64,000 bases of DNA from an uncultured Mucispirillum sp. GTDB lineage: Bacteria > Chrysiogenota > Deferribacteres > Deferribacterales > Mucispirillaceae. The notes under the pieces were generated by a model. That model saw only the letters and a list, made by a program, of their open reading frames with translations, did not search any database and was not told the origin of the DNA. The stretch is taken from NCBI GenBank assembly GCA_944324465.1, contig CALUWI010000002.1:124001-188000 (forward strand), in the 5' to 3' direction. The first letter of the stretch is position 1. The number at the start of each line of letters is the position of its first letter. Position numbers and translations under genes: made by a program. Of this stretch, positions 7,247 to 10,768 are shown one piece after another.

Positions 7247-7274
7247 TTGACATTACTTATTTAAGACTTATAAT
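7247..7274 (+). promoter_or_regulatory. Near-perfect sigma-70-type promoter of the barrel operon
   Basis: TTGACA at 7247-7252 and TATAAT at 7269-7274, both perfect hexamers, with a 16-bp spacer. It lies about 32 bp before the ATG at 7306, which has GGAG just upstream. Strong expression of the outer-membrane operon is expected. Confidence 0.75.
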
Positions 7275-7305: not shown

Positions 7306-8502
7306 ATGAAGAAATTAACTCTGCTTGCAACTTTTTTATGCTGCATATTTGGTTCAATTTCCACTTATGCTGCAGAATACTCCCTGCCTAATGCTTATGA
7401 TTTTTTCATATCAAGACAGGCTGAAAAAAATGACAACCTTCCACAGTATATTAAGCCAGACTATATTAGAGATGACTATAAAAGAGTACTGCCGGATTTA
7501 GACAATGAATCTCTTGGGTTTTTCCAAAAATACCCTGTAGAAGTACATTTAACTTCTACTTTTTCATACTCTATTAATGCAAACACTTTTAATATGCGTG
7601 ATTTATTTTTTACAGTTGGTCAAACTTACCATAATGACTGGCTGCAGCTTACAGGTTTTGTAACTGCATTTGGTTATTTTGATACTCACGACCCATTATC
7701 TGACTATGGATATGTAAACGGCAATGCTGGACTTTATGACGGCGGTTTTCAAGCAGTGCTTTTTGACAGAATATTAGTTTCTGCTAGAGGCAGAGCAGTA
7801 TATGATTTAAGTACAAATACTTTTATGCTTATGAATCATTTTTATGACACAACACTTGATTTATCAGAAAATGCTCCATTTTATACAGATATACAAGACT
7901 ACCAGCTTCCACAAAATATGAACGGACCTGGTATCAGAATAGGTTTCATTGGCAAACATTATGAAATAGCATACTCTCAAGGCGATTTTATGCACGGTAT
8001 ACCAAAAGCATTAATTGCAAAATTTAATCTGCCAAATATTGATTTAAGATTTTTATACGGCCATGAAAACAGAAATGCTCCAGCCAGCTGGACAAATGAA
8101 CTTTCAAGCCATTTAGTACAGGTTTCTTCTACTTTCAGATACCCATTTTTAAATAATAAATTATGGGTTAATGCTATTGCTGAATATACTTATCGTCAAA
8201 ATGATGTGAGAGAAGTGCCGCAAGGAAGTGTATCAGATGACGGAAAGCATACAGTTGATGCAGCAGGCAACCTTACTCCTTTTGCTCCAGATGCTCACTA
8301 TGTTCGCTTAGAACAGGCAATAGAATATTATATGCTGAATGTTGCTTTAAGAGAGATTGTACAGGTTAGAGGCGGTAAAACTGTATTTAACTTAGAATAT
8401 GCCATATATGGTAAATTCCAGGCAGGTCCTTCAGAATTTACAATAGGTTTTCAAGGCTCTACTGACGGCAGATATTATATAGCCGGCGGAATTAAATTCT
8501 AA
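7306..8502 (+). CDS. Probable outer-membrane beta-barrel protein
   Basis: 398 residues. A Sec signal peptide is clear (MKKLTLLATFLCCIFGSISTYA, cleavage after about residue 22). The mature part alternates polar and hydrophobic residues, is rich in Tyr, Phe, Asn and Gly, and ends in YYIAGGIKF. A C-terminal Phe is the usual sorting signal for BAM-inserted barrels. No characterised porin family is recognised. It is followed 15 bp later by a second barrel-like gene carrying a poly-G tract, so the two form an operon under the promoter at 7247. Role (porin, adhesin or uptake) cannot be told from the sequence. Confidence 0.75.
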   Translation: MKKLTLLATFLCCIFGSISTYAAEYSLPNAYDFFISRQAEKNDNLPQYIKPDYIRDDYKRVLPDLDNESLGFFQKYPVEVHLTSTFSYSINANTFNMRDLFFTVGQTYHNDWLQLTGFVTAFGYFDTHDPLSDYGYVNGNAGLYDGGFQAVLFDRILVSARGRAVYDLSTNTFMLMNHFYDTTLDLSENAPFYTDIQDYQLPQNMNGPGIRIGFIGKHYEIAYSQGDFMHGIPKALIAKFNLPNIDLRFLYGHENRNAPASWTNELSSHLVQVSSTFRYPFLNNKLWVNAIAEYTYRQNDVREVPQGSVSDDGKHTVDAAGNLTPFAPDAHYVRLEQAIEYYMLNVALREIVQVRGGKTVFNLEYAIYGKFQAGPSEFTIGFQGSTDGRYYIAGGIKF

Positions 8503-8517
8503 TAACAGGTGCATATT

Positions 8518-9631
8518 ATGAGATTTTTATTAGTATTAATAGCAACATTAAGTATATTAAGCTGGGGGGGGGGCATGTTTTGCAGTTGATGTTGACTTTC
8601 AGGTATATACAAGTTCCTATGCTTATAACGGTGAAAATACTCAATGGGAACAGACAAGAACAACTTTAACTTATTTTGAGAATTTTACAGAAGCATTATT
8701 TGATATTAAATTTAATGAAATAATAGATGTTCAGCTTGGTGCGGCTATTTTTATGCCGTTTACATTTGAATTTCCAGACGGAGTTCGTGTATTTCCAATA
8801 GTTACTTCCCGCATAGGTAATGAAGATGTGCAGTTAAGATTAGGAACTATGAAAAGTGGAAGAAATCTGCCAGCACCAATTCGTGACCCATTAATAGATA
8901 TGACACCTGTTGTTCGCTCAACCTGGGGAAATACCCTTATTGATAATAAAGAACAGTATCTTTATGGTGAAAAATTTACACACGGCCACTATGAATACGG
9001 CGGCTCACTTGACTGGTTTAAATATGGTAAAGGCGAGCTTTATATGAACTGGCAGGTTTTAGATACAAAAAGACACAGAGAAAGATTTGATGTGGGGTTT
9101 GACTGGGCATTAGATTTTGTTTCGCCTATTTTTACTCCATATATTGCAATCCATTACTGGCATAACGGCGGCCACGAAAACGACAGACTTCCAGGTGTAC
9201 CACCTATGACAGAAAACTATACTGGTGCAATAGGTATAAACAGCAAACATTTATCTATACTTTATCTTGCATCATATAACTTTGAAGACAGGGATAAACC
9301 AGGTAAATTTGGACATGGATTATATTTAAGGGGAGATATACCTATAACTCCAGATAAAAACTGGTTTGTAATTGAGCCTATTATATTTGTTTCTGGCTGG
9401 TACTTAAACCATGACCACCAGTTTATAAGTGTAGAAGGCGACCCATTTTTTAGAGTGCCATTTTATGCAGGGCTTAACATTAAAAAAGAATTTGTATTTG
9501 ATAACGGCATCAGCTTATCTTTTGCTTTTATAAACGGTGTATTCTTAACAGAACAGGGCGAAGTAGGTACAAGGTTTGACCAGACAATCAGCTTTAATTT
9601 TACATACAGATTACCAATCACTAAAAGATAA
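8518..9631 (+). CDS. Phase-variable outer-membrane-type protein, OFF by frameshift at a G10 tract
   Basis: The ATG at 8518 starts a signal peptide (MRFLLVLIATLSILSW), but a run of 10 G at 8564-8573 puts the ribosome in a frame that stops at a TGA a few codons later (near 8587). In the other frame the sequence stays open to 9631 and reads as mature protein from ACFAVDVDFQVYTSSYAY. One G fewer (9), or two more (12), restores a 370-371-residue protein with a cleavage site after CFA. The mature part is aromatic-rich and beta-strand-like, similar in style to the preceding gene, and ends FNFTYRLPITKR. Poly-G tracts of this kind mediate slipped-strand phase variation in other bacteria. An assembly miscount of the tract is the alternative. 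Confidence 0.75.
8564..8573 (+). repeat. Poly-G tract (10 G) inside a coding region
   Basis: Ten consecutive G in an AT-rich genome, 46 nt after the start codon and inside the signal-peptide region. The count sets the reading frame: 9 or 12 gives the full protein, 10 or 11 truncates it. Confidence 0.9.
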
Positions 9632-9645
9632 TATATCATTATGCA

Positions 9646-9668
9646 GCAGCCCCTGTGGTTGGGGCTGC
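9646..9668. terminator. Hairpin between convergent surface-protein genes
   Basis: GCAGCCCC (9646-9653) and GGGGCTGC (9661-9668) form a perfect 8-bp, GC-rich stem with a 7-nt loop. There is no clear U-run on either side, so termination is likely but not certain. Its place between two converging genes supports the call. Confidence 0.5.
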
Positions 9669-9725: not shown

Positions 9726-10768
9726 TTATTGTTTTGCAGGAACATTACCTAATGATATTGTTTTAGCTACAATACCTGATTTACCTATTACTACTTGTAC
9801 TTTAGCATCTTTGATTTCTGCCGCTGTTGCATTTGTTACTTTTACAGTATAAGTATCTGCTGATTTAGTAACTGTAACATTTAATCCTGCTGTTGCTTTT
9901 ACATTTTCTGATGCGTTTGCAGAAAATACTATATCTTCTACTGGCACGATATCATTCATTGTAATATATGCATCAGATGAAACACCACGAATATTTTCTA
10001 TAGTAGGGTAACTTATATAAACATCACCTATTTTTTTAGCAGTTATAGTAACTGTACCACTAGGTTTTGTTGGAGCTTCTAAGTAATATTCTTCATCTGT
10101 TGTGATAAAGTCTATTGCTTCTTTAAATGTAAAAGAATATTCACCATTATTATTTGTTACTGTAGAAATTTCTGCTAAAGCTTTTTCTGCATCTGCAAAT
10201 AAAAATTCTTCATTATGGGAGAATGTTATTAATTTTGTCTCAGCATTTTGAGTAAGAGTACCAAAACCTCTTGCAAATTCATTAAATTTACCTAAATTTT
10301 CAATACCTTCTGTTGTTAAATTATTATTTAATAATATTTCAAGTTTTTCTGCATATCTTTGGTCTTGATTATTTTTTTCTAATGAATTTTTAGAAAGCTG
10401 TACTAACATATCTCTGTGCCCAAAAGCTTCATTATCTGCACCACCACCTGCTTGTTCAAATGGTAATTGAGTTTTGTCTGGGTCATTAAGGTCATCATTA
10501 GTTCTAATAAAAGATTCTTCTTTACCTTCTGCGGTGATATAACTAACACCACCTGTACTTTCTGGGAATTTTAAAACGAATGGTAATGTTTCAAGATTAG
10601 TGCTTGCTGTTTGCACCAGTGGGAATTTAGTAAGGTTGTATTTGCCATCAGGCTTAACTACAGGTGGAACAGTTTCCCCCCCCCGTTAGAATCTTTGCTG
10701 TCATCAGCACAACCTGCAAGAGCAAAAACTGCCACTGCAGAAAACATCAACATTAATAGTTTTTTCAT
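9726..10768 (-). CDS. Phase-variable lipoprotein, OFF by frameshift at a G9 tract
   Basis: The ATG at 10768, with AGGAGG upstream, begins MKKLLMLMFSAVAVFALAGC, a lipoprotein signal with lipobox LAGC. After DDSKDSN comes a run of 9 G on the coding strand (10684-10676). With 9 G the frame ends at TAG (10660-10658) after 36 codons. With 10 G (or 7) it continues as ETVPPVVKPDGKYNLTKFPL into the long frame that ends at 9726, giving about 347 residues. The mature part is Thr/Asn/Lys-rich; its C-terminal 130 residues look like beta-sandwich repeats. No family is recognised. It is probably lipid-anchored at the cell envelope and phase-variable. Either a real OFF state or a miscounted tract explains the break. 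Confidence 0.72.
10676..10684 (-). repeat. Poly-G tract (9 G on the coding strand) in the lipoprotein gene
   Basis: Nine C on the plus strand are nine G in the coding direction, directly after codon 28. Ten or seven G restores the full frame; nine truncates. It is one of only two such tracts noticed in the window, and both lie in neighbouring envelope-protein genes. Confidence 0.9.

Follow-up and report, generated by a model that had tools for sequence, protein, structure and literature searches.

The 64,000-nucleotide stretch analyzed here (the window) spans positions 124,001 to 188,000 of contig CALUWI010000002.1 from an uncultured Mucispirillum species (assembly GCA_944324465.1; 2.42 Mb in 31 contigs). 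It contains a gene for a predicted outer-membrane β-barrel, P0001, with a homopolymeric guanine tract in its signal-peptide region. The gene lies on the forward strand and begins with an ATG at 8518–8520, six nucleotides downstream of a likely ribosome-binding site (AGGTG, 8507–8511), followed by MRFLLVLIATLSILSWGGG and then ten guanines. The start codon and the hydrophobic leader MRFLLVLIATLSILSW(G) form the part of the signal peptide that precedes the tract (8518–8563), the G10 tract itself, a putative slipped-strand switch, occupies 8564–8573, and an in-frame TGA at 8587–8589 closes the present OFF reading after 23 codons. Meanwhile, a second frame, uninterrupted from 8573 until a stop whose last base is 9631, encodes the 352 residues of a predicted mature porin-like β-barrel. 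The initial annotation had described the ATG, the leader, the ten guanines, the early stop and another frame open for about 1 kb, and re-reading of 8518–8589 and of the long frame confirmed all of these. Leaders resembling that of P0001 are found at L088, L070 and L071.

The tract sits in the 5′ coding part of the gene, where a single-unit change flips the frame between ON and OFF. When tract lengths of 6–13 G were simulated, a long open frame of 369–371 residues appeared at 6, 9 and 12 G only, in agreement with the earlier proposal that 9 or 12 G is ON; lengths of 7, 8, 10, 11 and 13 G gave products of 22–50 residues. Read in the ON frame, the sequence has a TAA immediately 5′ of the tract, and the next start codon is an ATG at 8753, deep in the barrel and without a leader. 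No alternative start therefore rescues the OFF state, and a start that bypasses the tract could be ruled out. The tract is not due to chance, as the window contains one G10 and one C9 without any G or C runs of 6–8, and none of 100 dinucleotide-preserving shuffles (0/100) contained as many G8 matches as the real window.

P0001 orthologues of 71–97% identity are known from Mucispirillum sequences, and the barrel gene was found in all nine same-genus genomes searched (one genome per species). In four of these species (G003, G002, G008 and G006) the same leader contains G9 and the gene is open; the other five (G009, G001, G005, G007 and G004) have no tract. The tractless orthologues are open except in G004, a 57%-complete bin, where there is one internal TAA. 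Since the tract is present in some orthologues and absent from others, it therefore appears to have been gained or lost within the genus. Its length also differs between related genomes, G10 here versus G9 in four species, so that both states are represented.

Comparison of the OFF copy with the ON copy of the nearest species (G003) gave a nonsynonymous divergence (dN) of 0.014 and a synonymous divergence (dS) of 0.175, a ratio of 0.083, and the remaining 352 codons of the OFF copy contain no second lesion. The mature coding region thus appears to be under strong purifying selection. The length change between species with both ON and OFF states lends support to the poly-G switching put forward in the initial annotation, as do the selection on the OFF copy and the genome-wide set of similar tracts described below.

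An AlphaFold2 model of P0001, built from an alignment of 22 relatives, is all-β with about 15–16 long strands (predicted local distance difference test (pLDDT) 72, predicted template modeling score (pTM) 0.74), compared with the 16–18 antiparallel strands of porins. Its best matches among solved structures are porins, namely OccK/OprD, the R. blastica porin and OmpC/OmpF, with E values of about 1e-8 to 1e-6. Read by eye, the ON leader is MRFLLVLIATLSILSWGGACFA-VDVDF. Searches of P0001 against Pfam, NCBIfam, PHROGs and plasmids returned no match, and a search of PDB sequences returned nothing meaningful, its one implausible match being a splicing protein (E 0.016). The model supports the assignment of P0001 as a porin-like outer-membrane barrel outside any known porin family, in line with the barrel-type protein first proposed: it shares its predicted architecture with general and OprD-type porins but lacks a sequence match to them in Pfam, NCBIfam or PDB.

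The tract is one of many in the source genome, where a pattern search at a threshold of at least 8 G, with flanks then fetched, located 35. In 265 kb of stretches picked for having tracts, there are 318 runs of four G, 47 of five, none of six or seven, 2 of eight, 24 of nine, 8 of ten and 1 of eleven; the window was not so picked, yet it has the same gap. Tract counts are 18–49 in genomes of the same genus, apart from the 57%-complete bin with 2, and 1–5 in those of the sister genus g2. Several matched tracts differ in length between this genome and G003, for example the barrel and a radical SAM gene (both 10/9) and a molybdoenzyme (9/8); length varies between species while the tract flanks stay conserved.

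At the level of sequence, the barrel gene has every feature tested for in a slipped-strand phase-variable gene, and the locus is very probably a contingency (phase-variation) locus, that is, a live switch and not a dead gene. Several points weigh against this. We infer variation between the cells of a strain from a comparison between species, each represented by one genome. On this branch there are 7 nonsynonymous and 10 synonymous changes versus 3 and 14 on that of G003, numbers too few to separate. Confidence in the P0001 model is moderate (pLDDT 72) and poor at residues 95–140, its template modeling (TM) scores to solved porins are about 0.4–0.5, and the protein ends in ...FTYRLPITKR, although barrels usually end in an aromatic residue. 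The broken frame, together with the slightly larger number of amino-acid changes (7 versus 3), would also fit a decayed pseudogene, killed by a one-base insertion and in the course of being lost. Such decay is nonetheless very unlikely, because 352 codons carry no second lesion, the existing one corresponds precisely to an altered length of a tract that four other species retain, and the genome has 34 further such tracts; an old pseudogene is ruled out by the dN/dS ratio of 0.083.

It is quite unlikely that the real tract has 9 G and that the gene is ON here, its OFF state being a sequencing or assembly error. Homopolymer lengths are often misassembled, and the remaining four orthologues with a tract all have 9 G, but eight other tracts in the genome also read 10 or 11; even if right, this explanation would void the OFF state only, leaving the tract and its switchability in place. 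Alternatively, slippage of RNA polymerase or the ribosome could yield some full-length protein at any tract length, making the tract a setter of expression level. Although long homopolymers can provoke transcript slippage, this leaky expression is unlikely, as it leaves unexplained the change in length between species amid conserved flanks, and it is also compatible with slow genetic switching. In several species the leader has a Gly-Gly pair encoded by the tract, which might suggest that the tract is neutral and left over, or that it reflects codon composition in glycine-containing leaders. We consider this extremely improbable in view of the two runs of 9–10 in a window devoid of runs of 6–8, the scarcity of tracts in the sister genus compared with nearly all members of this genus, and the five species that retain the gene with a tract-free leader.

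If the locus is a live switch, slippage of DNA polymerase in the signal-peptide tract would add or remove one G. At tract lengths divisible by three, the full signal peptide and the second barrel of a two-gene operon, P0001, would be translated, exported and placed in the outer membrane. At other lengths the ribosome would halt after about 22–50 codons and no second barrel would be made, while the first barrel remains on; the assembled consensus is in this OFF state. A clonal population would then always mix cells with and without the barrel, the likely benefit being evasion of host antibody or of phages that use the barrel. We infer the slippage rate, the mixed populations, the membrane location and the selective benefit in this scheme.

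The initial annotation did not mention that the barrel gene occupies the second position in an operon. Upstream lies a promoter-like site, a 12/12 match to the consensus TTGACA-N16-TATAAT (7247–7274, + strand), followed by an intact, tract-free open reading frame (7306–8502, + strand) for P0002, a protein of 398 residues with a signal peptide and a predicted porin-like barrel. P0002 ends in Phe, and its AlphaFold2 model, weaker than that of P0001 (pTM 0.58), matches OmpU/OmpT in Foldseek with an E value of about 5e-8. Its gene is present in all ten (10/10) Mucispirillum genomes and ends 15 bases before the ATG of the barrel gene. Relatives of both barrel genes also adjoin in Brevinematales, in reversed order. 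With P0002 upstream and intact, the switch should act on the second barrel only and the first should stay on.

A putative stem-loop terminator, identified by consensus match (9646–9668, + strand), lies 3′ of the barrel gene, between it and a convergent lipoprotein gene on the reverse strand (9726–10768; ATG at 10768, lipobox LAGC). The latter is OFF in this assembly and contains a G9 tract (C9 on the + strand) at 10676–10684, shortly 3′ of the lipobox Cys, which the initial annotation had likewise not mentioned. It appears to be a second phase-variable gene in the window. Within the genus, orthologues were found in just two further species (G007 and G004), and the one in G007 also has a nine-G tract and is also OFF.

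A separate observation concerns the divergence of the barrel gene. Against G006 (L165), dS is 0.31–0.60 in the neighboring genes and the first barrel and 1.48 in the switched barrel (8573–9631), or 2.5–5 times the value of its neighbors. Identity falls from roughly base 100 of the mature region onward, and the drop eases toward the end. As a lead only, the middle of the barrel gene may have been replaced by a distant allele through recombination, a hint drawn from one gene with dS near saturation.

Elsewhere in the genome, Pfam matches identify the targets of many tracts. Six molybdopterin oxidoreductases (L032, L035, L045, L050, L056 and L057) have 9–10 G in or adjoining a leader of the twin-arginine translocation (Tat) type, and in most of them this leader is near-identical (e.g., SRRSFLKGTAALGAMAAMYGCSKDSGSEIIY) and leads directly into the tract. 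L056 and L057 are in the ON/OFF state opposite to that of their G003 copies, as paired by best match with orthology unproven. Through these tracts in enzymes of the dimethyl sulfoxide (DMSO) reductase superfamily, clone-mates would differ in their sets of terminal reductases. Two N6/N4 DNA methylases and one HsdS-type subunit also carry tracts (L033, L054 and L048), making them candidates for phase-variable methylomes. A glycan locus (L043, 3668–17331) packs seven G tracts into 14 kb, where the targets include RgpF-type and other glycosyltransferases, FdtA and an MBOAT acyltransferase. Other targets are a sulfatase-fold protein and a radical SAM protein.

In a further class, C or G tracts of 8–11 lie between TTGACA and TATAAT-like boxes with spacers of 14–19 (L034, L039, L040, L052, L053 and L055), mostly about 30–55 bases 5′ of small lipoprotein genes; the class is seen in three species, with many loci in G003 and G006. 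These are likely switches of promoter strength. Beyond the genus, G tracts number 73 in G011, of the same family and another genus, and 58–83 in G046 and G047, 1.3-Mb genomes of the same class; in each case they may be switches or reflect base composition.

Outside the genus, a search of 41 genomes belonging to its family, order, class or phylum found no real orthologue of the barrel gene, the one match covering 61 residues (E 9e-4). Homologues do occur in Brachyspira (64–68% identity) and Brevinematales (about 40%), and gene exchange with spirochaetes is therefore likely. The homologous gene of B. alvinipulli has G9 in its leader (L085, 4904–5001), and that of a relative has A plus G8 (L089, 4832–5001). 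Similar to P0001, the B. alvinipulli homologue combines a G9 tract in the signal peptide with a mature protein that is 67% identical, but its signal peptide is unrelated and its genome holds only 4 tracts in total; that of the tract-bearing relative holds 3.

The majority of Brachyspira lack the leader tract, and the two that have it belong to one inner clade. Because the leaders of the two genera are unalike, the Brachyspira tract was apparently gained separately from that of Mucispirillum. Separate gain is preferred to common descent of the tracts in view of the four or more changes that parsimony requires across the gene tree, the unrelated leaders and the confinement of tract-bearing Brachyspira to a single inner clade; in that tree, support is poor for how the Mucispirillum lineages branch close to the root. 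Overall, we think it probable that Mucispirillum has a genome-wide poly-G phasome that switches both surface structures and respiration, with some of the six molybdoenzymes ON and some OFF, and that Brachyspira gained its barrel tract separately.

Mucispirillum is a core bacterium of mouse-gut mucus, is present in defined-flora mice and is linked to inflammation in mouse models. If the proposal is true, each culture would be a mixture with respect to the barrel, lipoproteins, glycans, DNA methylation and anaerobic reductases, and the seeming absence or silence of a gene in expression and knock-out studies could stem from the state of its tract. Why gut bacteria from two unrelated phyla came to switch the same outer-membrane gene would also become directly testable.

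The open-licence papers searched contained no report of phase variation or a phasevarion in Mucispirillum or of phase-variable repeats in Deferribacter, and nothing on phase-variable DMSO reductase or molybdopterin genes, absences that carry little weight. Neither 'phase var' nor 'homopolymer' occurs in the M. schaedleri genome paper (PMC5285517), and the main text of the Campylobacter phasome survey (PMC6321876) lacks 'DMSO' and 'molybd'. The phylum, the scale within it and the respiratory targets appear to be new relative to the papers searched, and the genome-wide set of tracts and its molybdoenzyme targets are more surprising than the barrel switch itself.

By analogy, the mechanism would be the already known poly-G phase variation of the Campylobacter type. 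Campylobacter phase-variable tracts peak in length at 9 (53%) and 10 (26%), and a PhasomeIt survey found them in some homologues and not in others (PMC6321876). Both phasomes comprise tens of intragenic poly-G tracts per genome with peaks at 9 and 10, target radical SAM proteins and methyltransferases, and are patchy among homologues, whereas Mucispirillum differs in its phylum, Deferribacterota, in the promoter-spacer class before lipoproteins and in the set of Tat-type molybdoenzymes. Neisseria has poly-G in the reading frames of the haemoglobin receptors HmbR and HpuAB and in the promoter of PorA (PMC3786947, PMC3639595). Like the predicted barrel P0001, these are outer-membrane proteins under a poly-G switch, but no sequence relation to them is evident, and the tract of P0001 falls within codons for the signal peptide, in the downstream gene of a two-barrel operon. 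The promoter-spacer class of Mucispirillum, in turn, resembles Neisseria porA, with poly-G within the promoter (PMC3639595).
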